Below, piece by piece: positions 1 to 29,460 of a stretch of DNA of 29,460 bases. Made by a program: the position numbers and the translations under genes. This DNA comes from a virus. The notes beneath the pieces were generated by a model. That model was not told the origin of the DNA, made no database searches, and saw only the letters and a list, made by a program, of their open reading frames with translations. The first letter of the stretch is position 1. Every line of letters starts with the position of its first letter. The stretch lies in IMG/VR virus record IMGVR_UViG_3300001460_000047, positions 15,036 to 44,495 of that record; one strand, 5' to 3'.

Positions 1-1313
1 TTGTACCCATATTCTGTAGATGTTAAGTCAGCCCGAATGTCCGGGTCATCGTCAAGCATAATACCACTAACCATAGCGTCACGCAGGTTGCCCCAGCATT
101 GCGCTCGTAAGTTTGCGTAGCCAGAGACGGTAGCTTTAGAACCAAAATTAACTTCTACTACTTCTAGTCCTAGCTGCCTACATCTGTCGATTACGCCACC
201 GCCAACACCACCGCCATCGATAAAAATTGTATTTGGATTTTTCTGGGCTGCTAGTGTTGCTACTTCTGACGCTAGGGTCATAGTATCTACGCCCCGGTAT
301 TTTTTAATTCCTTGTGACACACAGTCCCTGCCTTGTCTCATCCATATGACAGACTGGTCATCCCCAAAACGTGCAACGTCTACGCCCATAACTAATGGTT
401 CGTGTGGTTCTACATGCACGTCTTCTCTCATGCATTTGTCTACTAAGTCACTGGGTATAAACTGCATAGAGGCAGCGCTGGGAAACTCGCCCTTAATCCT
501 GACCTTTACAAAGTCGCTGTCTTCGCCATAGTCTTCCACCCATTGATTGAGCAAAGTCTTGTTAGTGATGGCTACGGTTCTGCTGTCTATAAATTTTCTG
601 ATATGACGGTGCTTGTATTTTCCAATCATGTTCTGAAAGAAACGCCCGGAGTTTCTGGTAGGGTTACCAAAGTCAAAGCACATAGGCTCTCCGTCAGTAA
701 GACCACCCTCACGCACCTCAAATATTTTTTCTGGGATAGCTGATGCCTCATCGAATATATAAAACGGTGAGCTGTTAGCGGCATGAAGACCAGCAAACGC
801 TTCCGAGTTTTCTTCTCGACTAGTCTGTGCATCAACACGCCATGTCTCTCGGTGCATTTTATGATATAAATTCATGGACCCACCCCCTGAGTTGAGATGA
901 TACCAATTTTTTGTCAGGCTTATGTTGTGCCACTTCGCAAGCTCTGCCCACGTTTTTGTCCGTAGCTGCTCCGCAGTGTTGGCTGTGACTACCCCCTTCG
1001 CAAAAGGTCTGGTGTCCATCACCCATTTTATCAGCCAAGCCGTCAGTGTCGACTTACCTATTCCATGCCCGGAGGCGCACGTCACTCTTAGGGGTGGGAC
1101 TGGGTCGTGACCGTTGAAGTTACGGCTGGAGACCTCATTGCCAATCATTGTCAGGTAGTCTTGCTGCCATTCCAGCGGTCCATCTCTTCCGGCTAGGATG
1201 CCACTGCCCCATGGATAACTCATCAGCACATGGCGCAATGGGTCAGCGTAGCACTCTGCCATAGCATCTGCTAGCTGCATGTCTATGTCTATTGCACTAG
1301 GCTGTTGGGTCAT
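1..1313 (-). CDS. terL: Terminase large subunit, 3' end outside the window
   Basis: ATP-driven DNA-packaging motor and nuclease. The first 437 codons are present. The N-terminal ATPase has a Walker A motif GHGIGKS at residues 82-88 and a Walker B FYIFDEAS with Asp188-Glu189. The C-terminal RNase H-like nuclease domain begins at MGVDVARFGDD (Asp312) and has a second acidic motif FIDGGG (Asp366). The remaining nuclease residues lie beyond base 1. The start MTQQPSAID is preceded only by a weak AAGAG ribosome site, and the gene overlaps the preceding small gene by 17 bp, so translation may be coupled. It is the last visible gene of the leftward transcript that also carries the small terminase. 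The family assignment is secure from the motifs; the packaging type cannot be judged from this fragment. Confidence 0.95.
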   Translation of the reverse strand, partial: MTQQPSAIDIDMQLADAMAECYADPLRHVLMSYPWGSGILAGRDGPLEWQQDYLTMIGNEVSSRNFNGHDPVPPLRVTCASGHGIGKSTLTAWLIKWVMDTRPFAKGVVTANTAEQLRTKTWAELAKWHNISLTKNWYHLNSGGGSMNLYHKMHRETWRVDAQTSREENSEAFAGLHAANSSPFYIFDEASAIPEKIFEVREGGLTDGEPMCFDFGNPTRNSGRFFQNMIGKYKHRHIRKFIDSRTVAITNKTLLNQWVEDYGEDSDFVKVRIKGEFPSAASMQFIPSDLVDKCMREDVHVEPHEPLVMGVDVARFGDDQSVIWMRQGRDCVSQGIKKYRGVDTMTLASEVATLAAQKNPNTIFIDGGGVGGGVIDRCRQLGLEVVEVNFGSKATVSGYANLRAQCWGNLRDAMVSGIMLDDDPDIRADLTSTEYGY

Positions 1314-1675: not shown

Positions 1676-1676
1676 A

Positions 1677-1766: not shown

Positions 1767-1768
1767 GG

Positions 1769-2539
1769 TTAGCCTTCCTTCCTGTGTGATGCGATGTCTA
1801 CAACATTAGCAGCTCGTTTGCGTCCAGCTTGCAGCCTGTCAACGATATCATCAGTCATTGTTATCTCTTTACGCTCTGCCGGGTACAAATCAGCAATCTT
1901 GCCCAGCTCACGGAATGCAGAGACCATTGCTCCAGCCTGTGCAGTCTGGTCTGCAAGGTCAGCAGCTCTCTGTAGTCCTGTAATGATGTCATGCAGCTTT
2001 AGCTGGGTTTTCTCAATGATTGGCGCTTTTATCACTTCAACCCTTTGGGTAATCTTTGGGTGACTACCAAGCTTGCTTGCCTCTTCATTCACCTGCTTGT
2101 CATTCATCCTACTTGTATCGTAAGCAGCTCTGTAACAGTCAGACAGTGTATGCTCAGCACTTGCAACTAGTTGGGCAAACTGCTCTTGCTTGGGAGTAAG
2201 CTTGTATCGTTTACCGTCAGCAGCTTTGGTCATCTCGCTCCTGTCTCCACCACCACCTGCAAGGCTGTTCTCTAAATCGGGTGTCTTCTCAATTAAGCTG
2301 GCTTCATATGCATATGCTTCATCCTCATCGACAAAGCGCTTGAGAATATTAACGACAACTTCCTCACCACTATCAATGATATCTCGCACACGCCTAGCCT
2401 TTGGACTAGCGTCAGTGTCACGGATGTCTAATCGATGAGTGTGTGCATAGCCTCGGGATGCTGTGCCTTTACCAACATAAAAAACCTTTAGGTCTCTCGG
2501 GTCAGTCAATGTGTAAACATAAAACTTTTGTGTAGCCAT
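1769..2539 (-). CDS. GIY-YIG nuclease fused to terminase small subunit-like domain
   Basis: A two-part protein of 256 aa. Residues 5-98 form a GIY-YIG nuclease domain of the LEM-3-like type: FYVYTL (Tyr7/Tyr9), FYVGKG (20-25), a conserved Arg29, and the metal-binding Glu79 in YEASLIE, followed by Asn91 and a glycine run. Residues 114-235 resemble the small terminase DNA-binding family (Terminase_2 type), opening LTPKQEQFAQLV, then a helix-turn-helix-like segment and the SKLGSHPKI signature, then helices for oligomerisation. It lies nine bases after the resolvase gene and shortly upstream of terL, as expected for terS. The nuclease part could nick or cut DNA at the packaging site or act against competing DNA; neither is shown. 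No separate terS is visible nearby. Confidence 0.8.
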   Translation of the reverse strand: MATQKFYVYTLTDPRDLKVFYVGKGTASRGYAHTHRLDIRDTDASPKARRVRDIIDSGEEVVVNILKRFVDEDEAYAYEASLIEKTPDLENSLAGGGGDRSEMTKAADGKRYKLTPKQEQFAQLVASAEHTLSDCYRAAYDTSRMNDKQVNEEASKLGSHPKITQRVEVIKAPIIEKTQLKLHDIITGLQRAADLADQTAQAGAMVSAFRELGKIADLYPAERKEITMTDDIVDRLQAGRKRAANVVDIASHRKEG

Positions 2540-3136: not shown

Positions 3137-3229
3137 AACTTGAGCAGCAACTTGAGCGCTCAAGTTTATAATCGTTGCTATATATGACGTTTGCACTGCT
3201 CAAGTTGTAAACTTGTTCTCAGCTTGAGC
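3137..3229. repeat. AACTTGAGC direct and inverted repeats with an 18-bp perfect palindrome
   Basis: AACTTGAGC occurs at 3137-3145 and 3149-3157. Its reverse complement GCTCAAGTT is at 3158-3166 and 3198-3206, and a partial CTTGAGC at 3223-3229. The second and third copies abut to make the perfect 18-bp palindrome AACTTGAGCGCTCAAGTT at 3149-3166. CAAGTT-GTA-AACTTG at 3201-3215 is a further inverted repeat. The TGA stop of the primase-helicase at 3200-3202 is inside one copy. Density and symmetry are typical of a replication origin, a regulator-binding array or a packaging site. Confidence 0.7.
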
Positions 3230-5350
3230 AATAACAAATGTCCACCGTCCATTAGTCTTCTTCTTTGTGTCGAGAACAAGCTGCACCGTACCACCAGAGA
3301 AATGCACTGCGTCTTCAAACATCATGTGCAGCTTCTCAGCGTCCCGGGTAAACATCCTGTCCCCTGTCACCGTCCATATATCTTCACCTCGCATCTTGTC
3401 GTGTATCTCAGCCAGCTTAGTAAACGAACCATAGCCAAGCCGTTCCCCCATCTTCTCAGCCAGCTCAGATGCAAAGAGTTTATCGATTGCACCGTCAAGC
3501 AGCACGTTAGCTGCCGTTTGCTCATCAGTCATTTCACATACACCGATAGCACTGCCCTCGCCTTCATCCATCTCTTGCCCCACCAGTTGATACATAACTG
3601 GTTGCAGTGGCTCACCTTCTCTAATCTTGCCTGTGTCCAATACAACGTACCGTGATAAAGCCAGCTCCAACTTCTTTTGCTTCCAAGCTTTACGCTGCTC
3701 ACCATTCTTTGGCATCCAATGGCTAAGAGTGTAACCACAATCAAGAGCAGAATAAATTGCACCGCTACCACGCCAAGCACTAGCATCGCCACGATACCAG
3801 TCATCGTCCTTGTTTCTGTCCTTGGGCGTGTGATGTGCATGTATTACCGCAGCTCCTGTCATGGACGATATCATTATAAATGCTTTAGTCAAAATGCCAG
3901 CACTGACTGCGCTGTTCTCATCCATTGCTTCAGACAGCGTAACGTAGGGGTCTAGGATGATAACACTTGCGTCAACACGCCTAGCTTGGGCAACTATCTT
4001 GGCTATACTTTTCTGGTCCAGCTCAGGTGTACCTATCTCATTCAAAGCTATCAGCCGAGCCGTTCCATTGTCCTTGCCACGGACCACAATGTCAGCACTG
4101 TCCTTGTCATTGTGTTGCAGCATAACTGCTTTCAGTCTGCGTTTGATATCATCTACTCGTTCTTCATTGGCAATCCACAAAGACGCATGGGTCGTGTCTA
4201 TTGGTGGTAGACCCATGCGCTTTGTATTACCAACGGAGAGTGAGACAGCCAGAGCAGCTAGCCATCTCGTTTTCCCTACATTCGATGTACCACCTAGAGA
4301 CACTGTCGAACCTTTGGGAACCATGCCGGGTATCACCCAGTCAATTGGATTAAGTTTTTCTAATCGTAAGCCCTGAGCATTAAATGTTTCATACTCAGTA
4401 TCCACTTGAGCTTCAGCAACGTAGGCTTCGATATCATCTATTGTGGCTTCACGTTGCACTCCTATCGGGCGTTGGGGAGCATCCTTAAAGAAGCTTTCGC
4501 CATCGCCAGTAATCTTATCAATTGCTGTCTGCGACACTTGCAGGTCAGCTTTTCTGTTTGCGCTTTCGACAAGGTCAGTAATTTTGTTGAACCTATCCAG
4601 CCAATCATCATGCCGCTTGTGTCCAGCATTCTTTGCATCACTGGTCAGCATAATATTCTTTAGCACTGCAAGCTGCTCATCTTTACTAAACAGGTCACCA
4701 TTGTCATTGCGTCTAGACGGTAGCCGATAAGACAGCGTCCGTAACGCTGGGTATAAGTCAGTGGCTGATGCTATGCGATTGATAAGGTCATCGTCTGTTG
4801 CATCGTTAAAACTCGATGTCGCTAATTTGCCGTTCACCTGCTGCCCGGTTGCATTGTGCAGCAAGCTCATTGGAAACGATTTGATAGAAGTATCATTTAA
4901 TACTTTATATCCAGCAGTCGGTGGGAAGCATATGTAACCAGCGCCAACAGCTTTGATATCCACACCCTCTCTTAATGTAGATGGAAACCGCATTGCCCCC
5001 GGGTGTTTAAATATAAAATGTTTGCCGCCTGACCGGGTGACATGGGTCAGCGTCTCTTCTAAACCTATCTGACCTTTCACCCACTCTTCTAGCTCTGGGT
5101 CTTTATAAACGTCTACGTCAACACACATCAGCCCGGACATATCTCCCATCGGGACAGCTATCTCAGTTGCTAATCGGTGACTAAATAATTTTTTGATTTG
5201 CTTGGGGTCTTGCGTTGCTATCTTGTAGCCGCCTTCACCTTTACCAACTTTCAGCTCTGCATTAGACCAGCAAGGCTTCTTGTCATTTGTTGGAAATACC
5301 GGGTAAGTCTTAGCGACTTCCAGCGCTTCCTTTACAATATCTCTGCTCAT
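3200..5350 (-). CDS. Prim-pol primase fused to RepA-like replicative helicase
   Basis: Bifunctional replication protein of 716 aa. The N-terminal half is a bifunctional primase/polymerase (prim-pol, AEP) domain with the metal-binding pair Asp78/Asp80 in MCVDVDV and the nucleotide-binding SGGKH at 107-111. The C-terminal half is a hexameric RecA-fold helicase of the RepA/AAA_25 type: Walker A GGTSNVGKT with Lys360, Walker B VIILDPY with Asp467, and AAVIHAHHTPKD as the sensor region. The start at ATG 5350 is preferred over an upstream ATG at 5389 because AACGGAG, the ribosome site shared by the early genes, lies just upstream of it. It overlaps the preceding 80-aa gene by 41 bp. It probably primes and unwinds for the family A polymerase at 10144. 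The stop codon is inside the AACTTGAGC repeat array. Confidence 0.93.
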   Translation of the reverse strand: MSRDIVKEALEVAKTYPVFPTNDKKPCWSNAELKVGKGEGGYKIATQDPKQIKKLFSHRLATEIAVPMGDMSGLMCVDVDVYKDPELEEWVKGQIGLEETLTHVTRSGGKHFIFKHPGAMRFPSTLREGVDIKAVGAGYICFPPTAGYKVLNDTSIKSFPMSLLHNATGQQVNGKLATSSFNDATDDDLINRIASATDLYPALRTLSYRLPSRRNDNGDLFSKDEQLAVLKNIMLTSDAKNAGHKRHDDWLDRFNKITDLVESANRKADLQVSQTAIDKITGDGESFFKDAPQRPIGVQREATIDDIEAYVAEAQVDTEYETFNAQGLRLEKLNPIDWVIPGMVPKGSTVSLGGTSNVGKTRWLAALAVSLSVGNTKRMGLPPIDTTHASLWIANEERVDDIKRRLKAVMLQHNDKDSADIVVRGKDNGTARLIALNEIGTPELDQKSIAKIVAQARRVDASVIILDPYVTLSEAMDENSAVSAGILTKAFIMISSMTGAAVIHAHHTPKDRNKDDDWYRGDASAWRGSGAIYSALDCGYTLSHWMPKNGEQRKAWKQKKLELALSRYVVLDTGKIREGEPLQPVMYQLVGQEMDEGEGSAIGVCEMTDEQTAANVLLDGAIDKLFASELAEKMGERLGYGSFTKLAEIHDKMRGEDIWTVTGDRMFTRDAEKLHMMFEDAVHFSGGTVQLVLDTKKKTNGRWTFVIAQAENKFTT

Positions 5351-5552
5351 AAGTTTTTCTCCGTTGTTTGTACCGCTCCAAATATTCACGGTTATTCATA
5401 TGCAACAGAGGTATCTTAACTTTCCACACCGCATCAATGTCTAACCCTGAGCCATCCGGCTTGTACATTTGCCGCTGCTCAATAGGCAGTTTAGCAATTG
5501 CAGCAAGTCTTCGCTCATGCTTATCGGGAAACAAATAGTGTAGAAAACTCAT
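5310..5552 (-). CDS. First gene of the leftward operon, 80 aa, unknown
   Basis: Unrecognised basic protein, MSFLHYLFPDKHERR at its start and a lysine/arginine-rich helical C-terminus (YLERYKQRRKTYEQRY). The start at ATG 5552 is chosen because AACGGAGAGGAG lies directly upstream; a more upstream ATG at 5573 has no such site. It is the promoter-proximal gene of the leftward transcript, which often means an early regulator or takeover protein, but nothing in the sequence fixes its role. Confidence 0.65.
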   Translation of the reverse strand: MSFLHYLFPDKHERRLAAIAKLPIEQRQMYKPDGSGLDIDAVWKVKIPLLHMNNREYLERYKQRRKTYEQRYCKGSAGSR

Positions 5553-6923: not shown

Positions 6924-6956
6924 AGTGCTTGCATCAAGCACTGAAAAGAGTATGAT
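6924..6956 (+). promoter_or_regulatory. Early promoter with palindromic operator, upstream of the SNF2 helicase
   Basis: AGTGCTTG-CAT-CAAGCACT (6924-6942) is a perfect inverted repeat of the core AGTGCTTG found in the other operators. TTGCAT (6929-6934), 16 bp and TATGAT (6951-6956) form a sigma70-like promoter whose -35 lies in the palindrome centre. AACGGAG and the helicase ATG follow. Confidence 0.7.
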
Positions 6957-6981
6957 GCAGATATACAACGGAGAGAAATAC

Positions 6982-8322
6982 ATGAAACAATTACTACCAC
7001 ATCAAATATCGGATGCTAAGTTTTTAGCTTCCAAATCATTCGCTGGAAATTTCAGTGGAATGGGGTCAGGCAAAACATTGTCTGCCATCACAGCCATGCT
7101 GCATGTCGGACCAGACATTGATGACAGCACTGGTATCAAATCTATTAACATCGTCATAGCGCCACCCATTGCATTAAGCATGTGGTCACAAGAATTGTCG
7201 GCTGCTGGTTTTACACCGGGCGTTGTTAAAACTGCTAAACAAAAATTACCTGTCGGTGATGTCATGTTGATGTCATACGACATTGCAACTAAACGAGCTG
7301 CATCATTCGATAGAGTTAACATTCTTATATGCGATGAAAGCCACGCTCTTAAATCAGTCAAAGCAAAACGCACCAAAGCAATTCTAGGTGCAGGTGGTCT
7401 GGTCGAGCGTTGCCGTCATAGCTGGATGCTGACAGGCACACCCGTGACACGCTGGAATGATGACCTGTTCCCTTTCTTATGCCGAGCTGGTTATGAAGAG
7501 CTGAAAGAAAACATTGGCGGTATGAGCATGGAAAAGTTCCAGCTTAAATACTGCATCATGCAAAAGCGTACTTTCCCGGGAGCTAGGTTCCCCACAAAAA
7601 TGGTAGTCGGCTCACGCAATACCGAGGAGCTGAATGACGTTGTGTTTAAAAACAACATGGCTGTCAGACATGAGCTGGCTGATGTTTGGAAAAACATGCC
7701 ACCTATCACACACACCAGATTGCCAATTGAATTGTCACGCACTGCCGAGGTCGATGAGGTCTTGAAGATGCTGGACGAAACGAACATGCAAGACCTGCAA
7801 GATAAGATGACCAGCAAGGATGAAAGTATTAGCTCAGCTAGACGCATCATTGGTCTGGGTAAAGTTGCTGCATCCGCTGAGGAAATTATTACCCGGGTGC
7901 GTGATGGTAATAAACCTATACTCGTAGGCGCTTGGCATCGTCAGGTTATTGACCAGCTCGTAGAAGAAATAGGAGATGCTGGTTTGAACGTGGCTAGTTT
8001 GGATGGTCGCACCAGCTCAAAAGAAAAAGACAAGGTGGTCGAGGACTTCAACACAAAATCGCTGGACGTTCTGGTAGGACAAATTTCTGCGATGGGTGTT
8101 TCATTAAACCTACAGCGAGGCGGTTCACATATTATTGTCGTTGAGGAAGATTGGTCACCATCCATCATGGACCAGTTTTACGCACGGCTGCATCGTATGG
8201 GTCAAGAGCATGGGGTCCATGTTGATACGCTAATTGCTGAAACTAAACTGGACAGAGCAGTCGAGAGAATAAATAAAAATAAACGTACCCATCATGGGAC
8301 ACTAATGGAGAACGCAGAATGA
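6982..8322 (+). CDS. SNF2-family DNA helicase/translocase
   Basis: Superfamily 2 ATPase of 446 aa. Motif I is MGSGKT with Lys31, motif II is DESH at 118-121, and motif III is MLTGTP. Motifs V/VI are AMGVSLNLQ and RLHRMGQ (402-408), the RxxRxGQ signature of SNF2-like proteins. The start at ATG 6982 follows AACGGAGAGAAATAC. It overlaps the downstream nuclease by four bases (ATGA), so the pair is translationally coupled. Pairs of SNF2-like helicase and PD-(D/E)XK nuclease are common in phage replication modules, where they likely process DNA ends or recombination intermediates. Confidence 0.92.
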   Translation: MKQLLPHQISDAKFLASKSFAGNFSGMGSGKTLSAITAMLHVGPDIDDSTGIKSINIVIAPPIALSMWSQELSAAGFTPGVVKTAKQKLPVGDVMLMSYDIATKRAASFDRVNILICDESHALKSVKAKRTKAILGAGGLVERCRHSWMLTGTPVTRWNDDLFPFLCRAGYEELKENIGGMSMEKFQLKYCIMQKRTFPGARFPTKMVVGSRNTEELNDVVFKNNMAVRHELADVWKNMPPITHTRLPIELSRTAEVDEVLKMLDETNMQDLQDKMTSKDESISSARRIIGLGKVAASAEEIITRVRDGNKPILVGAWHRQVIDQLVEEIGDAGLNVASLDGRTSSKEKDKVVEDFNTKSLDVLVGQISAMGVSLNLQRGGSHIIVVEEDWSPSIMDQFYARLHRMGQEHGVHVDTLIAETKLDRAVERINKNKRTHHGTLMENAE

Positions 8323-9320
8323 TTACTAATAAAGATTTTATAAAAGAGCAGGTAGACTTCGGACGTACAGCAATTGAGAACCTGCACGTTTGGGATGTAG
8401 ACCGTTCTAAGTATATGAATGCCTCTGAAGCAGATAGCTGCATCAGACGGCAGTGGTATGAAAAGCACGATACAGAGAAAGGACCAGTTGACTGGGGCTA
8501 TGCCAGACGGGGTAGCCATGGTGAAAAGTATTTGGTCGAAAGCTTACGAGCTGCAAACATGCCTTTAGAGCTTGCAGGTGATGAACAGAAATCATTTGCC
8601 GACAGAGAAACCATGATATCGGCAACCCCGGATGGCGTAGCACTTCTAGATGACGGGCGATATCAATTTGAGTTCAAGACCGTTGACCCTCGGGTCAATA
8701 GAAGTAAGCTCCCTCGGTCTGGTCATGTCACCCAACTACGTCTGGGCATGGCTCTGTTGAATAAGTTGTACTATCGCAAAGAACCTATCAAAGCAGGTGT
8801 CCTAATTTATATGGATGCGAGTAACTTTAATGATATCACTCAGCATATCATTACACCTGAGCCGGGTATTTTAGAACGGTATGCACAACGTGCAAAAACC
8901 ATTTTAAAAGTACGAGCTGCTGATACGCTGGACCGTGAAGGTAAAGCGACAGGTGAGTGCAAGCTGTGTGCATTTAAACAAACCTGTGGCGTAGACTTTG
9001 CACCCCGTCCAACACAACAGTCCCGGGGCAACCGTGGCTCTGCTTTGGATGAGTTTGTCAAAAATTATAACTCTGCGAAAGAAGCTGAAGACTTAGCCAA
9101 AAGCACAAAGGCGGCTGCTGGCGAGGCTATCAAACAAGAGCTGATAAATCGCAGCACAACAGAATTAGTTGTCGGACCATATCATATTGTGGTGAAGACA
9201 ATTAAGGGTAGGCGTTCCCTAAACAGGAAGCTTATCGAACAGGCAGGGATTGACCTGTCACCGTTTGAAACTGAAGGCGCTCCTAGTGAACGTCTTGAGG
9301 TCAAACATTTAGCAACGTAG
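8319..9320 (+). CDS. Cas4/AddB-like PD-(D/E)XK nuclease with Fe-S cluster cysteines
   Basis: A 333-aa nuclease. PDG with Asp105 and EFK with Glu118 and Lys120 make the PD-(D/E)XK core. Cys41 near the N-terminus and Cys214, Cys217 and Cys223 (CKLCAFKQTC) are placed as in Cas4 and AddB, where they hold a 4Fe-4S cluster that clamps the fold. The C-terminal 110 residues are helical and not recognised. Coupled to the SNF2 helicase by an ATGA overlap. Likely an exonuclease for recombination or host DNA breakdown. No CRISPR components are nearby, so a Cas4 role is not implied. Confidence 0.85.
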   Translation: MITNKDFIKEQVDFGRTAIENLHVWDVDRSKYMNASEADSCIRRQWYEKHDTEKGPVDWGYARRGSHGEKYLVESLRAANMPLELAGDEQKSFADRETMISATPDGVALLDDGRYQFEFKTVDPRVNRSKLPRSGHVTQLRLGMALLNKLYYRKEPIKAGVLIYMDASNFNDITQHIITPEPGILERYAQRAKTILKVRAADTLDREGKATGECKLCAFKQTCGVDFAPRPTQQSRGNRGSALDEFVKNYNSAKEAEDLAKSTKAAAGEAIKQELINRSTTELVVGPYHIVVKTIKGRRSLNRKLIEQAGIDLSPFETEGAPSERLEVKHLAT

Positions 9321-13796: not shown

Positions 13797-14696
13797 ATGC
13801 CTACAAAACGCAACATTCAAAAAGAAGTTACTGACCAAATTATCGCCCAGTTAAAAGCTGGTACACGTCCATGGAACCAGCCTTGGGAAGGCGGCAAAGG
13901 TTTTGCTATGCCTAAGCGCCACAGCGGTGAAAGCTATCAGGGTATCAACGTGCTGCTGCTATGGTCTTCCGCTGCTGCTAACGGCTTTGTTAGCCCTTAC
14001 TGGATGACATACAACCAAGCTAAGAAGTATGGCGGTCATGTCCGTGCTAAGGAGAAAGGCAGCATGATTGTCTTTACTAAGCCGATACAGGTGCAAGACA
14101 AGACTAGCTCTGACCCAGATGCAAAAGCTTCTATTTATTTTTACAAGCCCAGCACTGTGTTTAATGTTGACCAGATTGACGGTCTTCCTGAGAAGTTTGC
14201 CCCACCTGTCGTTCTTACAGCAGTAGCAAACCCTGACCAGCGTGTCCCTGCTGTTGATGCATACATCGCCAACACACAAGCTTCCATCTCGGAAGACGGT
14301 GACAAAGCGTTTTATGCACCGGGTCCAGACAAGATTGTAATGCCAGCCTTTGACAAATTTCTGACTGCCATTGATTTTTATTCTACTGAGCTGCATGAGC
14401 TGGTTCACTGGACTGGTCATAAGAGCCGTGTAAACCGTGACTTTAAAATTGGTGAAGGTCGTAAAGATTACGCCAAGGAAGAGCTGGTTGCTGAGATGGG
14501 TTCAGCGTTCTTATGTGCTGAGCTTGGTCTTGAGAATACTGTGCGTGAAGACCATGCGTCTTATCTTGCTAGCTGGCTTAAAGCTCTTGAGAATGACCAG
14601 AAGTTCATTTTCCAAGCAGCCTCAGCCGCCAGCAAAGCAGTCAAGTTCATCAACGAATTGCAGCCTGTAGAAAATGAGGCATCTAAGGTTGCGTAA
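13797..14696 (+). CDS. ardC: ArdC-like antirestriction protein
   Basis: 299 aa. Residues 1-130 are the ArdC N-terminal ssDNA-binding domain: the opening RNIQKEVTDQIIAQLKAGTRPWNQPW, the NVLLLW segment, and the KYGGHVRAKEKGSMIVF stretch are typical. Residues 185-290 are the zincin metallopeptidase domain with HELVHWTGH (His200, Glu201, His204, His208) and a downstream ELVAEMG supplying a further Glu. ArdC proteins protect incoming single-stranded DNA from restriction; the protease role is less clear. It has its own operator-controlled promoter and AACGGAG site, and is closed by a strong terminator. Confidence 0.92.
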   Translation: MPTKRNIQKEVTDQIIAQLKAGTRPWNQPWEGGKGFAMPKRHSGESYQGINVLLLWSSAAANGFVSPYWMTYNQAKKYGGHVRAKEKGSMIVFTKPIQVQDKTSSDPDAKASIYFYKPSTVFNVDQIDGLPEKFAPPVVLTAVANPDQRVPAVDAYIANTQASISEDGDKAFYAPGPDKIVMPAFDKFLTAIDFYSTELHELVHWTGHKSRVNRDFKIGEGRKDYAKEELVAEMGSAFLCAELGLENTVREDHASYLASWLKALENDQKFIFQAASAASKAVKFINELQPVENEASKVA

Positions 14697-18098: not shown

Positions 18099-20168
18099 TT
18101 ATGGGTTCATTCTATGCCAATGATGGAAATCAACATTAACATTGATGCCATGTTGATAATAATAATTGTCGCCAATCATCCAAATACTGTTATCGGACAT
18201 TCTGGCAAAGTGTGTCCAATAACCGCTGTAATAATGTCCAACTGAATAAAGGTCTTCGATTTGAATATCATTACTACCAGCCCACCAACTAGTCTGACCA
18301 GTTAATGTATGCTGCCATGGACCCGGATACAGAAAGGCGTAACTATAACTTTCAGCATCTGTGTTTGCTTGATGGTAATAGTTAGCATTATTCATATATC
18401 CCCAAATCCACAAACGGTTTTGGTTATCCAATCCATACCAGCCCGGGGAGTTATACCCGTTAGTACGCATAGGAAATATCCGTTTCAGATTGTCTCTTGG
18501 GAAAGTTAGGTTAGCTGTTGTTAATGAGCCATCTGTTGACGCAGTAATATTTTTAATGAAGCTAGTTCCAAAGGTTAGCGTACTAGGTTGCAAGACAGAT
18601 TGGTTAGCTGTCGTGTTACCTTGTAGCAAACAGCCTTGACCGTTGTAGCCCATCATTCTCAAAGGCAACCCGGTGTTAGCAGCAACACAATATGTGTATG
18701 CGTCTCCCGGTCCGTCTACCCCAGATGAGTTACCTAGTAAAGCAGCCGTTGAAAGTGTGGATGCATTACCAGTACAATGAACAGCAGCAAAGTTAGCTGA
18801 GCCACCTATCTGGGTCCATGCACTTAGAGCAGTTGTGTTACCTTGACCTAATTGCCCTGACCCATTGTTCCCAATTCCGTACATATCTCCATCTGTCTGG
18901 ATAATGTACGCAGACGCTGTAATACCGCCATTGTAGTAATAGGTGTCCATATTCAAAATCTGAGCAATGTTATCAATGCTGGTCATTTGAGCGAATGATG
19001 TTCTAGCAGACCCAAGGGATGATATGCTGCTAGTGTTAGCACCAGTATGGAAACCTTGACCCGAGCTGTTCACAGCATAAGTATCATTATAACCTAATGA
19101 TAGCTGTGTAATATTAGTTAAGCCGGAAACCAATGTAGGCACTGTTCTGTTAGTGGTGTCACCGTGTCCACCTCTACCGCTGCCATTCCAGCCCCATGAG
19201 AATACTCGTCCATCGTGAGTAATTGCCATGTACCCGGTGTTACCCATGCCTTGATAGCCTCTAGCATCGTTAGTAGCGATAGCTGAAACTTCACAAGTAA
19301 TACTGTTGTTTGTGGCAAGAGGACCAAGATACGGATTTCTTACAAGATAGTATCTGTCAGTCGTGTCCCCTAATCCTAATTGTCCAGAGGCGTTTTCTCC
19401 ACCTACCCAGACATTACCTTTGCTAGTAAGTAGGCATACAGAATTTCCGTTATACCAAATTCTGACAAAATACTCATCAGCAGCCATGCCGCCAAATTCC
19501 ATGCTTAACATAGTCATGTTGTGAGGCTGGTCGTTGTAGTTACCCGTAGCGATACTGCCTAGACCTTGGTAAGCGTAGCCGACATTCATAGGCTCGTAGT
19601 TAGTGTTAATCCACTTTATACAAGTATTATTGCTGGCATAGTCGTTTCTGTCACGTTTGACAGGACCACACGCTCCGTTTGGCATTCCGTCATATGGTAT
19701 CCAATTTGCGCTGGCTCCTGACTTACCATTGTACTGAGCAAGCCACGGGTACTTACCATCAGTACCATACAAAACAGTAGCATTACTTTTTGCATAGGCT
19801 GGTATGTTAGTGCCTAAAATAAGTTGTGTGTCAAAGCCTGTTACGTTGCCATAGCCTAGTGTGTTAGCTGCTGTAACTTTAAGACCTTGTCCTACTGACC
19901 CGGCAGCTAGTCTAATGCTGCTAGACCCATCGTGGGTCATCATATCACCAGCAGTGGTTAACGGTGTTGCACCGTCTGCCATTAAATCCCAGTGTGCGCT
20001 GTTAGACGCAGACGGAGCTGCTGCTGCTGTTCCAGTTTTTGCCGTTGCGTTTACATATACCCAGCTAGAGCCAGAGTATGAAACCACGTCATTTAGGCTG
20101 TAAGTTGTCCCGGTAGCAAACGCCCCGGTCCAGTTAAACCTAATTTTCCCGATGTCGATTGTAGCCAA
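18099..20168 (-). CDS. Tail/receptor-binding protein with RCC1-like beta-propeller repeats
   Basis: A 689-aa virion protein. Residues 9-65 (FNWTGAF, then TYSLNDVVSYSGSSWVYV) form a carbohydrate-binding-like module common at phage tail proteins. From about residue 240 there are RCC1-type blade repeats: VWVGGENASGQLGLGDTTD, FSWGWNGSGRGGHGDTTN, MYGIGNNGSGQLGQGNTT and IWGYMNN, separated by variable Gly/Asn/Tyr-rich loops, giving a propeller-like head. It probably binds the host surface. The start is a TTG at 20168, chosen because AAAGGAG lies six bases upstream and MATIDIGKIRF is the natural N-terminus. It follows the tail-fibre adaptor gene. Confidence 0.82.
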   Translation of the reverse strand: MATIDIGKIRFNWTGAFATGTTYSLNDVVSYSGSSWVYVNATAKTGTAAAAPSASNSAHWDLMADGATPLTTAGDMMTHDGSSSIRLAAGSVGQGLKVTAANTLGYGNVTGFDTQLILGTNIPAYAKSNATVLYGTDGKYPWLAQYNGKSGASANWIPYDGMPNGACGPVKRDRNDYASNNTCIKWINTNYEPMNVGYAYQGLGSIATGNYNDQPHNMTMLSMEFGGMAADEYFVRIWYNGNSVCLLTSKGNVWVGGENASGQLGLGDTTDRYYLVRNPYLGPLATNNSITCEVSAIATNDARGYQGMGNTGYMAITHDGRVFSWGWNGSGRGGHGDTTNRTVPTLVSGLTNITQLSLGYNDTYAVNSSGQGFHTGANTSSISSLGSARTSFAQMTSIDNIAQILNMDTYYYNGGITASAYIIQTDGDMYGIGNNGSGQLGQGNTTALSAWTQIGGSANFAAVHCTGNASTLSTAALLGNSSGVDGPGDAYTYCVAANTGLPLRMMGYNGQGCLLQGNTTANQSVLQPSTLTFGTSFIKNITASTDGSLTTANLTFPRDNLKRIFPMRTNGYNSPGWYGLDNQNRLWIWGYMNNANYYHQANTDAESYSYAFLYPGPWQHTLTGQTSWWAGSNDIQIEDLYSVGHYYSGYWTHFARMSDNSIWMIGDNYYYQHGINVNVDFHHWHRMNP

Positions 20169-21177: not shown

Positions 21178-24100
21178 CTAATCATTTAATCTCTTTTTAG
21201 CCTTTTCGTCTGTGTAGCCAGCCAAGTAGTCAAACCATGTTGGTTTTAAGTCATCGTCCATATCTTCGTCATTCTCTGCAATCCATGCAGATAGTCCTCT
21301 ATTAAACTGGATTGCTCCCGGGAGACCCAGAATAACTCCTAGTGTAGAGATTAAAGGTTTTATCTTTTTAAGCTCTGGCTTGTCTTCTTCTTCAGCATCT
21401 TCATCAAAATAATATTCGTAGTTGTCCCCTATGTAGTCCACAGCTCGTATTAAGTTTTCTCCAAAGCTCTCTACGGGTGACATGCTGTAACCAAAATCAC
21501 TTAACATGCCGCCAGCTATGTCCCTAACAAAAGGCACGGTCCCTGCTAATGTCCCAAAAGTTCTGGTGGCTAGCCATTGAGGTACTGAGTTAACTTTGTC
21601 ACCGTCTTCGTCCTCTTCTTCAAAATCTGGTATTTTGTCTGTCAGTAAAGCTTGGGCTGCTTCAGCTACCGTAATCAAAACTATTATTCTAGCTGCTGCT
21701 CTAGCAACAGTTAGTGGGTTTTTAAATTTAACTTCACCTGTTATCTGCCTAGTCACTCCGTACAGCAAAGCAAAGAAACTGTAGAACATTGTAAAGATTT
21801 TCATAACACCAGCTTTACGCTGCACTGCATTTAAATCTTTAAGACCACCTGCTGTCTGTGAAATTCTAACTACTCTGTCTGCGTAGTTAGATGCTCCTTG
21901 CACGTTGTTAGGCTCAGCTCTTAATGCCCGGTTATACGCAGCTATCCATGTCGGCACATCAACACCGTACATCTGGATGCCAGCAATCGCTAACATAGCC
22001 ATCTCTGAAACTCTGTTAGTTAACCCTTTTTTACCACTAAACTGACGTAATGCGTTCCGCACTTCTCTGTCTGTATTTTCCAGTCGGTGTCGCATCTCAC
22101 CAGACAGGGCAAACATATTTTTACGCACTTCTGGGTCAAATGCAGTGGTCGCTCCTATAGCAAGGTCTTTAGCAACGACAGCAGCGCTTATAGGTCCATA
22201 GGTTGTATCAGCCATTAGCCTATCAATAGTTGCTGTGTATCCCAGCAATTGAGCTGCCATAGTGGTGTAAGACAAACCTAAGACGGCTACTGTGACGTTG
22301 TTACGCACAGCTAAGGCTACCTGTTCCCAATCCTTAACTGGTGTTTGATTTTCATTGTTGGAAGCAATCGCCCCTACCCATTCTTTAAGCTCGTTATAAT
22401 ATGCCGAGCCGACTTTTTCATTTACAACAGTCTCGATTTCTTTAGAGCCTAAAATCTTGTTTGCGTTACGCACTGCTTCGTAATGCGTAATAAAATGAAT
22501 AGGACGGTTAAAGACAGACAGTAGCCGTTCAATTCTAAAATCGATAGGCGCTGAAAAGTTCTCTGACCTTTCTTTAGTCATAGAGCTGTTCAAAGAAGCT
22601 TTTAACGTCTGCGATTGAAACGCTGCTATAGCGTCCATCTTATCTATATTTTCTGCTGTGCTGCTTCGGCTATGGTCGTACATCATTGGGAAGTACCCAC
22701 CTGTCCAAGTACCATGCCTGTTAGTGAATACTGTAGGTTCTACCCGAGCTGGTGACCTGCCGTTTTCTTGTCTGTAAATTGCGTCTACCGCTGGGAATAG
22801 CTCTTCAGATATAGTCCATATATCTTGGATAAGCTGCCATTCTTCTTTGGTTAACTGGTCTAGCGCTTTGTCGATTAGCTCTTTGTTAATCTTTCTTCCA
22901 ACGCCTCGTTCACCTTCAATCATTTTGGTTAGGTTACTTTCGTTACCTATATTCAGCGCCATCATAATCAAAGCGCCACGCTGCCACGTCTCTCCCGGTA
23001 GCGCTAGCTCACCTACATCAACACGCTTTCCCAGAGCCTTCTTAACTTCTTTTGGAAGCGCTTCTAATTTCTGGTTAACCCGTTTAGCAATCTTATCTGT
23101 CAAATCGGATGAGGCTGCTGCTGCGTCTGCAAACGGCTGGTATACCGCTTGATGCCACGGACCATTAGCCTCACCGTCATCCATCATTTCTAATAGAAGT
23201 TCTACTTTTAAAAGCGCTGCATCTAGGTGAGCTAGTTTGATTGCACCCTTAGATATCAAACCTAAATCAGTGGTAGTAATATTTTTATCCCGAGCTTTTT
23301 TGGCTTTTGCTGTAGGACGGCTGGATAGTTTGGAGACCAGAGTAGCTATAACCTCTGCCCGGTCTCGCTTATCTTTACCGATTAGTAGTTTTTTCTTTAG
23401 CCTACCCTGCTTAATAATCGTCTGCACAGAGTTATATAAATCTTCAAAATCAGCTACTGACAAGTCGTTGTAATTTTTAACACGGTCTTCCTGTGCCAAA
23501 ACTGCCGGATACTCAAAGATAGCCCCGTCTTTTGCTTCCGCATCTGCCATCCACCTAGCTAGAGCTTCTAGCTTCAATTTAGTACGTTTACGCTGACCCA
23601 TCTTTGGACCTAGACTATAGATGTCCAAAATCTGGCGTACTCTGTCCATGTAGTCTGCATCGATGCCCGGGTGTTTTTTACGGTCACCTTTGTACTTAAC
23701 CAAAGTAGACTTCTGAGTAGCAATAGTTTTTTGTAAGCGGATAGCTTCTTTTGCCATCTCGTAATTTACAAGCTGATTAAATTTATGTTTGTACGCACTT
23801 ACCTTATCGCCAGCTCTTAAAGCTTTGCCAGCTTCCTTAGCTGCTTTTTTCTGAGCTGCCAAAAATAATGCAGGTTTTACTTCGCTAACTTTTTTGTTAA
23901 GCAAACGCTGTCTTGCCATTGCTCTTACAAATTTTAATTTGAAAGCAGTCTCGCTGGTACGCAGCGCATCTAGCTCTGCTTGTATTACTTCAGCTCTTAA
24001 ATCCGTTTCATGCACACTGGCTATAGCTAGCTCGGTAGCATCTTCATTAACTACCGGACCTTCATCTATTAAAGCACCTGCTATCTTTTGGTTAACCAGC

Positions 24101-27100
24101 TCGTCAAACGGTACATACAAAGACAGCGCTTTCAACATTGCGTCAGCGTCTGGAAAACCAAAATACGCAGCTACCGCTCCCGGGGACGTGGTGTCTTTAC
24201 CTGTTCCGTAAATAACTGAGGAACCTAACTTTGGTAGTTTAGCTAGAGCCTCTTTACCGCCTAGCATTTCGATTAACATTTTTCTATTAATCTTACCGAC
24301 TTCTGGTTCTACTTTATTACCAAGAGGGTCCGTTCCTTTACTAAGACCGTGCATTAGTTTGTATAAAGGAAGCTCCGCTACTTGTGCTTCAATATCGGGG
24401 CGTAGTTGTTCTTCTCTGTTCTTACGCTCTTCTAGAGACGCACTTTCCAAATCTTTTAGTTTCTTAGATAGCTGTTTTGCCTTAGCTTGTGCTACTGCTC
24501 TTTCTGCTTTCTGTCGATATTCATTAAATTCTTTCTGGGTCATACCAGCTTCTGCCGCTGTCTCAAACATAGCAGCAAGCTTGTACTGGCTTTTCATTTC
24601 GGCAATTTCAGTATCAGTAGCTAGCATCCTATCCAACACGCCATCTACCTCTGGGCTAAACTTTACATCTAGACCATTATAGCCGCCCATACGTTTAATC
24701 GCCCGATAGACGCTAGTCATCCAAGCAGCAAAACGAGTAAAGGCATCTAGCAAAGTAAATGATGGAGCTTCACCTGTTTTTAAATAATTTTCAAAGCCCC
24801 GGGCAAACTGTTCATGCATAGCTATAGCGACATAGCGTGTAGTAGCATCGCCTCTAAGCTCCCCACTCATAATAAATTTCTTGAGCTGGTTCTCTGTCAT
24901 GCTTTGTATTTTAGAAGCGGCATCGCTGTTTTTATCTTTTTTAGCTCGTTTGACTGCCTCTTCTCTAATTTGTTCAGTTCTGCCAGACCACCACCGTTTT
25001 ACAGTGGTCCAATCTTTATCTAGCTTTCCCCCTACTTCCATAGCATCTTGCTTTAGCTGCTCTAACCAAAAATGCCCACTCTCATGTAAAAATGTACTTC
25101 TATCTGCGCTTTCAAAAATTTGAATAAGCGAAACAGGTTTACCGTTTTGGTCTTGTATCTGGTCTTTAGGTGTAAACGTACCACCTGTGTTAGTCTGTCT
25201 GGTTTGTTCTAGCGTCAACCCTTCTGAGCCGGGTAGCTGCGCTAAGGTAGTGTCTACAGTAGGTTCCCCTGTTGTAACAAATTCTAGCGGCATCAGGTCT
25301 ACCTTTTGCTCGGCAAATTCCCGTTCAGATAATTTCTTACCCTTGGCATCCGGGTTAAAATTAGTCCAGCTATTTTGTCCTCTTGTCTCTGAGGTCAGCG
25401 CCCACCTAGCCCATGGGCTTCGGGTCATTAGCATATGGTTGCGCCACGCAGCTTCTTCGCCTAATGGTCCAAAGCCTACCGTACTCATTGTGTGTGCGTA
25501 GTAATCGTGTACCGCTCTTAACAAATCATTCATCAGTAGTGGCTGTCCGTTTACATCAACACGCCCACTGTCACGCAATAACGGGTGGTCTTCATACACC
25601 ACCCCTTCCGGTCCGAATGACCCGGGTTCTGTTTCTAATATAAATAGGTGATTGTTTTGGTTTATGTCTAAGCGCATTTTCTCAGACATAGCTGTACCAG
25701 TGTACGGCTCTTTAAAGTTTTTGATGTTGCCGTCTTTATCTCTTTTCTGCTGAAAGACTTCTACCTTGACAGGCAACGTATCAAACTGCTCTAGCAGTTC
25801 TACAATTAATTCTTCATAAGCACGTCTGACGTTAGGGTCAGCTAGATTGTCTAGCTGCATCGCCTCGTATGCTTCCATGATTTCTGTTTGAAGAGCTTCC
25901 TGAGCTGGTGTCATCTCACCAGCTTGCTCTGTGGGGTTTACGGTTTTCTTAGCTAAACGTGCAGCTAGTCTTATTGCTGTTTTGTTTGCTTGGTCTGTTT
26001 TCGGGGCTTGAAAGTTACCTCTGATTTCCCCGTAGCTATTTGTGGCTCCGTATCCTCTACCGTAAGCCCAGAGGCGTTCAACAGTCCGGGTAATCTTTCG
26101 TGCATTGCTTCCAATAAGTTTGTCGGCTCGTTGGATGGCGGTTTCAAATTCTTCGATTGCTTTTGCGTCATTTGGGTCTCCTAAGTAATACGCAAGCAGA
26201 CTGCCGTCCCCACCTACGGAGAAACCGACTAGACCGCTCTCGTCTATTATTTTTGTCAGCTCTTGTTCATTGAGCTGGTCGTTCAGTTCGTATTTTATCA
26301 CAGAAGTATTGAAACTTCCATCAGTATATTGATAACCTACTTTTTTCTTGTTTTTAGCTGGTGCTTCTCTAACGTGAATTTGCTCCTGATTAAACATCTC
26401 AGCAAACCTAGCCAGAGCTGCCAAAGCCCTTGGTTTGTCAGCATTAGTCATCTCAATGCTTAGGCTTAAAGACGGCTCAGCCTCGCCCCCATAAAAGCCG
26501 TAGCTAGGCACTTTGTTAATTACGACTAACGGGTTACCTTTTTTATCTACTAATCCAGAGGTGTGAAACTCTAGCGCATTAAAAGCAATTTCCTGTAGCG
26601 CTACAAATGCATCCCGGTCACCGCTCATAGCTGCTTTATGCAGATTATCTAAACCCGGTATGGTTCCGGTAGCTGAGGACAGACCTATCTGGATGCTGGT
26701 CTTTTCGCTTTCCCACTTTCTTTGCTTACGCAAATCGCCTAAACGCTTTGCTGTCTTCTTCAACAGAGCTAGGTCTTTGTCACTCATACCCTTAGTAACA
26801 TCGCCTTTTTCATTAGAGCGTCCCGGGATAGAAGCAGCATTTAAATTTGCTAATTGCTGTTGATAGCCACCTGCTTCCAAAGCCGCCTTATACTCACCTA
26901 CGTTTAGCAGCGTACTAAAATCAGGTACATCCCCAATCATTTCGTGAGTGAGGTCACCGTCTTCTAATATCTGTAGCTCTGTTCTGGTTTCGCCTTTAGC
27001 GCTAGCCCGTTCATACAGAGCCTTAGCCATAGACCAGATAGTCTCTTGGACTTCCATAGGGTCCATGTTTGCTTCAACCGCTGCTCTCCTCGCCAACACA

Positions 27101-29460
27101 GTCATAGCCATGTAACCCGGGCTTTTGCCGGGTCTAGCTATGTTAGCGTTTTGGCTGAATAACTGTTGGTCTACAAAACCCCAGTTTGCCATCCAAGCAT
27201 CATTCGTAACCTCGCTCTCAAACCCTTGCAGGTTTAAGCTGAACGAGTTTACTTTAGGACCAGACAACGTGATAGCATCGTCAGGCGTAAGCAGCGCTAT
27301 CATCGTGTTGTTTACCCAAGCGGATAAAACACTTGTCTCGCCTTTATCGCCTTGGACATTATCTGCCATTATCTTTTTAATGGTTGCTACGTCCTGTGGT
27401 CTCCCGGCAGCTACCCAGCCAGTCCATACATTCAGTGCGTTAATTAAATTACTTTCCACGCTAGTCTGTGGCGATAGAGCTGCTAGTAAAGCAGTAAACC
27501 TCGGTGCGTCTGCACCAAAAACAATATCCAAAGCTTGCTTGCTGCGTCTGTACCATCCTAGCTTGGCTCTACCAGCTCTGGCACTAGCGGCAGTCTCAGC
27601 CACGTTTGGTAAAGTTTTAAGTGTTTCTACTAGCTTAACTGCCTGTGCCGTTGTTAGAACCTGTATTTCGTCTGGCTGTAAAAAAGAAGCAATGGCAGAA
27701 AACCCCGGTACTTCCTTTCGTAAGGCTGCAAGTTTTTTCTTACTTTCTTTAGAAAGGGTCTGCTCTGGAGGAAAAACAGCCGGGGTCTTCTTATCGTTGA
27801 CAGGGTTATTCTGGTCGACTTCAAACTTAGCTTCGGCTTCTTCTTGAGCAGCGTTGTTCAGCGCAGTCACAACCTCTTCATCAGTCATTGTAGTAACGTC
27901 TATACCAGCCTTACTAATATCATTTAGTATCTGCTGTTGTTTCTTGCTACGCAGTTTTTCTTCACCTGTCTTGGCAAATTGTGCGCCAGCTTTTATAGAG
28001 CCTTGGAAACTAAAACTACCTTCGCTTGTTTCTTTTAAATTACCCCCTACCCCAAAACTGGGCTTAACGGTAACCATATCTATAGCAACAGAGTTATCTG
28101 CTCTAGGCGCTGTTGTTAGGTTTAACGCTTCAACAACACCATCAACTACCCCTGTTTCATCAGTTGCTGGGTTAATGTCGTTGCCTACCACTACATCGCT
28201 TTTGCCAAGTGGGGTATAGTACAAAACTCTAGGTATAGTCTTATTAGCATTAGGTATGCTGTTACTATCCGGGTTAGCTACTGGTATATCTATTGTCTGA
28301 CTAGACGCAGCTTCTACAGCACTGGTATTAGCCTCTGTAACACCATCTGGCACACCCTCGGTAGTAAGACTAGTACGGATGTCTTGAATGGTGCTTAAAT
28401 CGGCTTCAGTGTAAATAGGTGCTGCTGCGGTGGTCCGTTGCACGTTAGTTGGTGCTTCAGACCCAGTTATAATCAAATTGTCTTCGTTGAATAATTTCAT
28501 AGGACTGACGTACTCGCCAGTCTCTTCAGATATCCTAGCTGCTCGGACAGCGTATCTTTGTGCGGTCAACATTGACAGAAGCTCTGTTTGCTGGCTGTCA
28601 AAATTACCTGTCCGTCCAATCTGTTCTTTTATATTTTGCTCAATAGCTTTTGTGTCTGACACGGCTGCTGCTACATCAGCCTCATTCATAGAGGGTAGCT
28701 GTGTACTATTATCGGCTTCCTCTATAGTTTCATTAAGCTCTGTTTGTAGGTTAGCGTCAAAAGCTTCCAGCTCTGCCCCGGTCATACCGTCTGGGTCAGT
28801 TGTGGTGGACGTGGTGTGTAACTCCATAAATCCGTCAACACCAAGTATGTGCCGCACATAAGCGTCCGTATCTACAGCGATACGTTGTCCAGATGTAGCT
28901 GCCTCAGTAACTGCGTCTGCATCCAGTCCTAGTGTTTTTATTACGCTATCGCTATCAGGTCGGTCTTGGTCAAATTTAGTAAGTTTGTCAGCTTCTATAT
29001 AAACAGTGTCTACGCCTTTTTCTTTTAACTGGTCGGCAATAACAGTAGACCCATCAATTAAGTCCTGACCTTCTTTGCTTAACTTGCCTTTGTTTTTCTC
29101 AATTATTTCCCCGGTGGCTAACCAGCTACGAACAGTTTCTGCGTCTCTTTTTCTGCCATGCCATGTAGCAGTAGCAGTGGCTATATCCAGCGGCATTGTT
29201 ACTGTACCGCCAGCTACTTCTAGCACGACTTCATTCCAGTTAACTTTACCCACAGAAAATTTTTGGGCTAACCCTTCGCCTACGCCTTCAGCAGTTAAAC
29301 TAGTCCCTACCTGAGCCGTTGTACCAGCCGCTACGCTTTTAGTTTTAGCAAGTTTAGATATAATACCAAATTGCACTAGCTGAGTAAGACCTATAGTCGT
29401 TCCTCTAATACGCCCAGTCTTAATAGCAAAATCCACAGCTTCTTTATCATTTATAAAAGC
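21178..29460 (-). CDS. Giant polyvalent virion protein, 5' end outside the window
   Basis: 2,760 codons are present and the frame stays open through base 29460, so the true start is beyond. Numbered from an in-frame GTG at 29436: a DUF7178/HhH-like segment with ALSPQTSVESN at about 650; a conserved block HDYYAHTMSTVGFGPLGEE at about 1310 with ETRGQNSWTNF shortly after; a zincin-like HESGH at 1451-1455 (FLHESGHFW); a long Lys/Glu-rich helical stretch at 1600-2050; and a C-terminal part at 2440-2750 with KIFTMFYSFFALLYG and RIIVLITVAEAAQALL membrane-prone helices, an acidic linker and a typical polyvalent-protein end. Such proteins are probably packed in the head and ejected with the DNA. No methylase or SF2 helicase motif of the DarB type was seen. 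Confidence 0.88.
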   Translation of the reverse strand, partial: AFINDKEAVDFAIKTGRIRGTTIGLTQLVQFGIISKLAKTKSVAAGTTAQVGTSLTAEGVGEGLAQKFSVGKVNWNEVVLEVAGGTVTMPLDIATATATWHGRKRDAETVRSWLATGEIIEKNKGKLSKEGQDLIDGSTVIADQLKEKGVDTVYIEADKLTKFDQDRPDSDSVIKTLGLDADAVTEAATSGQRIAVDTDAYVRHILGVDGFMELHTTSTTTDPDGMTGAELEAFDANLQTELNETIEEADNSTQLPSMNEADVAAAVSDTKAIEQNIKEQIGRTGNFDSQQTELLSMLTAQRYAVRAARISEETGEYVSPMKLFNEDNLIITGSEAPTNVQRTTAAAPIYTEADLSTIQDIRTSLTTEGVPDGVTEANTSAVEAASSQTIDIPVANPDSNSIPNANKTIPRVLYYTPLGKSDVVVGNDINPATDETGVVDGVVEALNLTTAPRADNSVAIDMVTVKPSFGVGGNLKETSEGSFSFQGSIKAGAQFAKTGEEKLRSKKQQQILNDISKAGIDVTTMTDEEVVTALNNAAQEEAEAKFEVDQNNPVNDKKTPAVFPPEQTLSKESKKKLAALRKEVPGFSAIASFLQPDEIQVLTTAQAVKLVETLKTLPNVAETAASARAGRAKLGWYRRSKQALDIVFGADAPRFTALLAALSPQTSVESNLINALNVWTGWVAAGRPQDVATIKKIMADNVQGDKGETSVLSAWVNNTMIALLTPDDAITLSGPKVNSFSLNLQGFESEVTNDAWMANWGFVDQQLFSQNANIARPGKSPGYMAMTVLARRAAVEANMDPMEVQETIWSMAKALYERASAKGETRTELQILEDGDLTHEMIGDVPDFSTLLNVGEYKAALEAGGYQQQLANLNAASIPGRSNEKGDVTKGMSDKDLALLKKTAKRLGDLRKQRKWESEKTSIQIGLSSATGTIPGLDNLHKAAMSGDRDAFVALQEIAFNALEFHTSGLVDKKGNPLVVINKVPSYGFYGGEAEPSLSLSIEMTNADKPRALAALARFAEMFNQEQIHVREAPAKNKKKVGYQYTDGSFNTSVIKYELNDQLNEQELTKIIDESGLVGFSVGGDGSLLAYYLGDPNDAKAIEEFETAIQRADKLIGSNARKITRTVERLWAYGRGYGATNSYGEIRGNFQAPKTDQANKTAIRLAARLAKKTVNPTEQAGEMTPAQEALQTEIMEAYEAMQLDNLADPNVRRAYEELIVELLEQFDTLPVKVEVFQQKRDKDGNIKNFKEPYTGTAMSEKMRLDINQNNHLFILETEPGSFGPEGVVYEDHPLLRDSGRVDVNGQPLLMNDLLRAVHDYYAHTMSTVGFGPLGEEAAWRNHMLMTRSPWARWALTSETRGQNSWTNFNPDAKGKKLSEREFAEQKVDLMPLEFVTTGEPTVDTTLAQLPGSEGLTLEQTRQTNTGGTFTPKDQIQDQNGKPVSLIQIFESADRSTFLHESGHFWLEQLKQDAMEVGGKLDKDWTTVKRWWSGRTEQIREEAVKRAKKDKNSDAASKIQSMTENQLKKFIMSGELRGDATTRYVAIAMHEQFARGFENYLKTGEAPSFTLLDAFTRFAAWMTSVYRAIKRMGGYNGLDVKFSPEVDGVLDRMLATDTEIAEMKSQYKLAAMFETAAEAGMTQKEFNEYRQKAERAVAQAKAKQLSKKLKDLESASLEERKNREEQLRPDIEAQVAELPLYKLMHGLSKGTDPLGNKVEPEVGKINRKMLIEMLGGKEALAKLPKLGSSVIYGTGKDTTSPGAVAAYFGFPDADAMLKALSLYVPFDELVNQKIAGALIDEGPVVNEDATELAIASVHETDLRAEVIQAELDALRTSETAFKLKFVRAMARQRLLNKKVSEVKPALFLAAQKKAAKEAGKALRAGDKVSAYKHKFNQLVNYEMAKEAIRLQKTIATQKSTLVKYKGDRKKHPGIDADYMDRVRQILDIYSLGPKMGQRKRTKLKLEALARWMADAEAKDGAIFEYPAVLAQEDRVKNYNDLSVADFEDLYNSVQTIIKQGRLKKKLLIGKDKRDRAEVIATLVSKLSSRPTAKAKKARDKNITTTDLGLISKGAIKLAHLDAALLKVELLLEMMDDGEANGPWHQAVYQPFADAAAASSDLTDKIAKRVNQKLEALPKEVKKALGKRVDVGELALPGETWQRGALIMMALNIGNESNLTKMIEGERGVGRKINKELIDKALDQLTKEEWQLIQDIWTISEELFPAVDAIYRQENGRSPARVEPTVFTNRHGTWTGGYFPMMYDHSRSSTAENIDKMDAIAAFQSQTLKASLNSSMTKERSENFSAPIDFRIERLLSVFNRPIHFITHYEAVRNANKILGSKEIETVVNEKVGSAYYNELKEWVGAIASNNENQTPVKDWEQVALAVRNNVTVAVLGLSYTTMAAQLLGYTATIDRLMADTTYGPISAAVVAKDLAIGATTAFDPEVRKNMFALSGEMRHRLENTDREVRNALRQFSGKKGLTNRVSEMAMLAIAGIQMYGVDVPTWIAAYNRALRAEPNNVQGASNYADRVVRISQTAGGLKDLNAVQRKAGVMKIFTMFYSFFALLYGVTRQITGEVKFKNPLTVARAAARIIVLITVAEAAQALLTDKIPDFEEEDEDGDKVNSVPQWLATRTFGTLAGTVPFVRDIAGGMLSDFGYSMSPVESFGENLIRAVDYIGDNYEYYFDEDAEEEDKPELKKIKPLISTLGVILGLPGAIQFNRGLSAWIAENDEDMDDDLKPTWFDYLAGYTDEKAKKRLND

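Follow-up and report, generated by a model that had tools for sequence, protein, structure and literature searches.

Absence of GATC, GANTC and many other restriction-type words from the genome of a marine podovirus

The words GATC and GANTC are both missing from a 29,460-base window of viral DNA (bases 15,036-44,495 of a 44,495-base virus record), and exact counts over the whole record give zero for both across the full 43,301-base genome as well. They belong to a much longer list of restriction-type words that the genome does not contain. The analysis shows directly that these words are absent, that their absence is significant and has been maintained since a sister lineage split off, and that single words have been gained or lost from one lineage to another. 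The loss very probably represents restriction-site elimination under a large and changing set of host Type II systems.

The genome and its GATC and GANTC counts

The record opens with 1,194 bases that recur, with one mismatch, at the end of the window (positions 28267-29460). The sequence thus closes into a circle of 43,301 bases, and a circular or circularly permuted genome follows from this repeat; only 28,266 of the window's bases are independent of what lies elsewhere in the record. The genome is that of a marine podovirus with a capsid module of the BPP-1/epsilon15 type. It has a GC content of 44.5% and skewed dinucleotides, and no tRNA genes are found in it.

A primase-polymerase/AAA helicase replication protein is encoded at positions 3200-5389 on the minus strand (Pfam Prim-Pol and AAA_25). 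On the plus strand are a SNF2-type helicase at 6925-8322 (profile matches, including Pfam), a Cas4/RecE-like exonuclease at 8319-9320 (profile match), and a family A DNA polymerase at 10144-11928 that is 87% identical in L094/L099, a sister lineage in which nearly the same words are avoided. On the minus strand, positions 21178-29436 encode the larger part of a 3,201-aa protein, which runs on into the record start; its open reading frame closes across the circle, with 3,202 codons and one stop. It matches PHROG 9880 (1.3e-250) and phage proteins. BPP-1/epsilon15-type phages have a very large late-region protein, and by these matches the present one is its counterpart. An endolysin gene is also present in the genome.

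The gene at 13797-14696 on the plus strand encodes an ArdC-type antirestriction protein of 299 aa (Pfam ArdcN, 1.5e-36; MPTase-PolyVal, 1.4e-47; PHROG 7245 anti-restriction, 3e-93). It displays an ArdC-N ssDNA-binding domain and a zincin MPTase-PolyVal metallopeptidase domain, both above the Pfam gathering score. Protein profile scans of the genome detected no methyltransferase or hypermodification domain, and thus no modification gene that would spare the phage the need to avoid sites. No integrase or repressor was recognised among the proteins scanned, several of which are without any match.

Other features were seen in or near the window. The single open reading frame at 1769-2539 (minus strand) resembles a GIY-YIG nuclease in its N-terminal part and a small terminase in its C-terminal part. 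A tail-region protein at 18099-20168 (minus strand) has RCC1 (beta-propeller) repeats and is possibly a receptor-binding protein. Two N bases are present within the large terminase gene of the record (L001:14855-15100), just left of the window.

Base composition alone gives an expectation of about 112 GATC sites in the window. In the codon null used here, third codon bases are permuted among codons that have identical first two bases, amino acid and following base, and proteins, codon usage and strand-symmetric dinucleotides are preserved. Over 200 shuffles of the genome, GATC has a mean of 36.5 copies (minimum 24) and GANTC a mean of 33.2 (minimum 20); the window's unique 28,266 bases give means of 25.6 and 22.6, respectively. 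Asp codons that precede C are without exception GAC (129 GAC, 0 GAT), and before other bases GAT is slightly ahead (397 GAT, 361 GAC). Gly codons preceding TC are never GGA (0 of 46), thus the recoding is not confined to Asp. The 2,405 bases of noncoding DNA also have no GATC or GANTC site.

The initial annotation of the window had reported that both words are missing and that Asp before C is always GAC, and the exact counts agree with it on both points. It had proposed as checks a codon- and dinucleotide-preserving expectation and a count in the rest of the genome; the first proves to be far above zero and the second is zero for both words. Its observation of a two-word loss is correct in that both words are truly absent, but it is incomplete, as many other words are equally absent.

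A wider set of missing words

GGCC, CGCG, CCWGG, CGNCG and CCCGC also have 0 copies in the genome, and by exact counts about 20 more restriction-type words are missing from the entire window (positions 1-29460). A list of 28 motifs was obtained by a greedy search and then cleaned. Combined, these restriction-type motifs have 0 occurrences vs 546 in the codon null (range 493-606 in 200 shuffles); the null mean is at least 10 for 16 of the motifs and at least 5 for 25. It should be noted that the motif definitions were drawn from the same data, after seeing it, whereas a census of all 64 six-base palindromes is free of such choice. In this census 36 of the 64 are absent, compared with a mean of 3.1 and a maximum of 7 in the shuffles. 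The remaining palindromes are mostly near expectation, and the distribution is thus bimodal. Of the 1,923 six-mers that are eligible outside these motifs, the genome is missing only 11, three of which contain GGAGG.

Site avoidance has been defined as an observed/expected ratio below 0.1 with an expectation of at least 15 (Rusinov et al., PMC6286503). Zero copies against a null of at least 15 are found for GATC, GANTC, GGCC, CGCG, CCWGG, CGNCG and CCCGC, and among longer words for GGYRCC, RCCGGY, GRCGYC, YACGTR, GDGCHC, CAGCTG and CTGCAG. The affected words are mainly palindromic Type II words, as expected of site elimination. GGYRCC, RCCGGY, GRCGYC, YACGTR, GDGCHC, CAGCTG, CTGCAG and RGGWCCY, all on the list, are what we take to be known Type II recognition sequences, and we know of no enzyme that can be named for the absent words TTCAGG, GCAGGC, GCACGC, GACGAC and CGSCG.

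Two further words have unusual counts. CCCGGG is in excess genome-wide (e.g., at window positions 1427, 3003 and 3343), with 28 copies vs 7.2 in the codon null, and its expectation is 10-15 once the forbidden words are also excluded. The sister lineage has 24 and 20 copies, and many relatives have none. A pure by-product of recoding, with CCCGGG as a refuge from CCWGG, explains only part of the excess. GGAGG, the Shine-Dalgarno core, has only 3 copies vs about 26-49 expected and is also low in relatives G002-G004, G007 and G012; its scarcity could be due to translational selection or to another restriction word.

Maintenance and turnover of the list in relatives

All tabulated words are absent from the closest relatives (L005 and L092), and in L004 (97% identity) one of the 36 palindromes occurs once. 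Close relatives are found in several metagenomic samples, some of which we believe to be Tara Oceans assemblies. Nearly the same words are missing from the sister lineage, G002, G003 and G004 (capsid 97%, polymerase 87%). The present genome (G000) and G002 differ by 8,673 substitutions over 39,083 aligned bases (77.8% identity). When substitutions of the same kind and codon position are placed randomly (n = 50), they create a mean of 661 sites of the 25 shared motifs, with a minimum of 606. The aligned G000/G002 hybrid displays 20 sites, which are possibly indel-edge artefacts, and none of the 25 motifs occurs in the actual G002 sequence. With about 661 sites expected and none in either genome, new sites have thus been removed as they arose. 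The aligned sequences indicate that purifying selection is ongoing and that the avoidance is kept by selection, not by passive inheritance. The strong, long-term selection proposed in the initial annotation is therefore supported, both by this simulation and by the codon null.

The list also changes between lineages. CGSCG has 0 copies in G000 and G001 vs 34 in G002 and 27 in G003, and where G002 has such a site, G000 departs from it mostly in third codon bases. AGTACT has 0 copies in G000 vs 4 in G002 and 6 in G003, and GTCGAC has 7 in G000 vs 0 in G002 and 1 in G003. G007 keeps GATC at expectation (115/93), together with GGCC, CGCG and CAGCTG, and is without GANTC, CCWGG, GGYRCC, RCCGGY and GDGCHC. 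Each of the more distant relatives is missing a different subset of words. CCWGG and YACGTR are absent or almost so in most relatives, and most of the relatives with 50-67% GC have no GANTC or almost none. In G013 (L148-L149), CCNGG (0/180) and GANTC (0/160) are missing; CCNGG is broader than the CCWGG missing from its kin.

Among described phages, Bordetella phage BPP-1 has a capsid 59.5% and a portal 45% identical to those of the present virus, and the gene order of the BPP-1/epsilon15 podoviruses, from terminase through portal, capsid and tail to the very large late-region protein, is the same. BPP-1 is without 17 of 42 eligible six-base palindromes, but it keeps GATC (91), GANTC (81), GGCC and CGCG, all of which are absent here. 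BPP-1 and Vibrio phage 1.021.A encode DNA methyltransferases, whereas here none was found and ArdC is present instead. Nostoc phage Nsp-JY18 has no GANTC (0/244) or CCWGG (0/130) and is without 25 of 41 eligible six-base palindromes. It differs in having a GC content of 67% and in keeping GATC, GGCC and CGCG, and it is only distant kin.

The absence of GANTC from the Nostoc phage bears on the host. The initial annotation had considered an alphaproteobacterial host plausible, GANTC being the CcrM site; CcrM is usually a solitary methylase without a cutting partner. Since GANTC is also lost from a Nostoc phage, its loss does not identify an alphaproteobacterial host, and the proposal is left unsupported. 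The ArdC protein is 46% like those of Caulobacter and Brevundimonas phages, but plasmids from many phyla carry ArdC as well, and the matches of the DNA polymerase and of the helicase are scattered; they, too, give an alphaproteobacterial host no support. A capsid-profile search of a genome collection revealed no close prophage, and only small MAG contigs or distant prophages were found. The nearest capsid matches in the collection (78% and 73%) are on small contigs in MAGs, which are likely viral contamination.

Restriction-site elimination and other explanations

The bias towards palindromes, the exact zeros, and the way in which the list is both maintained and turned over are all explained by host Type II restriction. 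Host restriction had been named as a cause in the initial annotation, and it is the best explanation of a loss that is mainly palindromic and extends over all 28 motifs. Changes that are for the most part synonymous would have cleared the phage lineage of the sites that many Type II restriction enzymes recognise, and selection would eliminate any that newly arise. At infection the unmodified phage DNA would then present nothing for such enzymes to cut. Cutting enzymes of these specificities presumably occur in the hosts, and host populations that vary in their restriction-modification systems may have imposed the long list of words. ArdC proteins have been proposed to shield incoming DNA from restriction (PMC5512222); here ArdC may add protection of the DNA on entry, and the two defences may work together in this phage.

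Among non-temperate dsDNA phages site elimination is well established as a strategy; published work has found it in about 7.5% of cases, and in none for Types I and IIG (PMC6286503). The present virus is like these phages in its near-complete loss of mostly palindromic Type II words, in that no methyltransferase or hypermodification gene was found, and in that no integrase was recognised among the proteins scanned. It is unlike them in that many words are lost at once and in that the cognate host enzymes are inferred. The mean number of restriction-modification systems is about 2.5 for a genus, and about 16 for Microcystis (PMC8262939). With 16 motifs at a null mean of at least 10, or 25 at a mean of at least 5, the list is longer than the set of systems in a typical genome, which counts against site elimination as an explanation, as do the absent words for which no enzyme can be named. 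Several hosts or a long accumulation must therefore be assumed, and the length of the list suggests that several hosts or a varied host population are behind it.

The entire list could also have been imposed at once by a single host that, like Microcystis or Helicobacter, is unusually rich in restriction-modification systems. Some genera do have about 16 systems per genome, and two lineages at 78% DNA identity share almost the whole list, which fits a stable common host group. However the number of words exceeds the genus means that have been discussed, open-ocean cyanobacteria have few systems (PMC8262939), and the list differs between close relatives. A single host of this type is less likely than not.

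Much less probable is methylation-dependent regulation, also put forward in the initial annotation, whereby host Dam or CcrM methylation at GATC and GANTC would disturb transcription, replication or packaging. GANTC is depleted in about half of 33 pelagiphages, though GANTC methylation in their host is tied to the cell cycle (PMC9516812). The depleted pelagiphages and the present virus alike are marine phages from which GANTC has been removed, with a depletion that clusters by phage lineage; here, however, the missing words number at least 25, GANTC included, and the host is not known to be SAR11. A role of CcrM or Dam predicts the loss of one or two words and the retention of regulatory sites. 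Other restriction-type words, at least 23 of them and mostly palindromes, are missing as well, the sites are gone from all reading frames and from noncoding DNA with none kept at regulatory positions, and G007, with GATC at expectation and no GANTC, indicates that the two words are not lost together. Regulation therefore does not explain the data.

There is next to no chance that base composition, dinucleotide bias and codon preference suffice without selection on words. The dinucleotides are skewed at 44.5% GC, and the expectations for CGCG and GGCC vary with the model, but the codon null never gives zero for GATC or GANTC and always yields hundreds of sites of the 28 motifs; this explanation is rejected by the codon- and dinucleotide-preserving null and by the substitution simulation. 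Slighter still is the chance of a sequencing or assembly artefact, e.g., from restriction-based library preparation. The genome is known from metagenomic assemblies only, but the same absence is found in independent samples (3300023279, 3300025137, 3300020377, 3300020408, 3300020420, 3300018423 and 3300023281) and relatives from other records do contain these sites.

Restriction-site elimination of this extent is not unique. In a small background sample of 37 viral contigs of at least 9 kb, chosen by an arbitrary 14-mer, the loss of palindromic sequence in three is about as great as it is here. Among unrelated contigs, L208 is wholly without ACGT, CCGG, CGCG, GATC, GCGC and GTAC, L195 without CATG, CCGG, CTAG and CCNGG, and L193 without ACGT, CATG, GATC and GGCC. 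As each of these is without several four-base palindromes, multi-word elimination is not rare. The kind of strategy is already known, and the number of words removed here is at its extreme end.

A more tentative reading, somewhat less probable than even, is that the taboo words preserve, in readable form, the restriction repertoire pooled across a marine host population that is uncultured, in which CGSCG, TTCAGG, GCAGGC, GCACGC and GACGAC could be undescribed specificities. If so, the list would hold at least 25 specificities, more than one genome likely carries, and the mosaic of lists across the phage family would track host switches. The sister lists are almost equal after thousands of substitutions, and more distant relatives that share the same capsid hold other sets of words; together they serve as a clean natural experiment for the study of oceanic restriction pressure. 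Matching the lists to marine bacterial methylomes could lead to the hosts of an uncultured phage family, and the lists could also point to restriction specificities that are as yet unknown.
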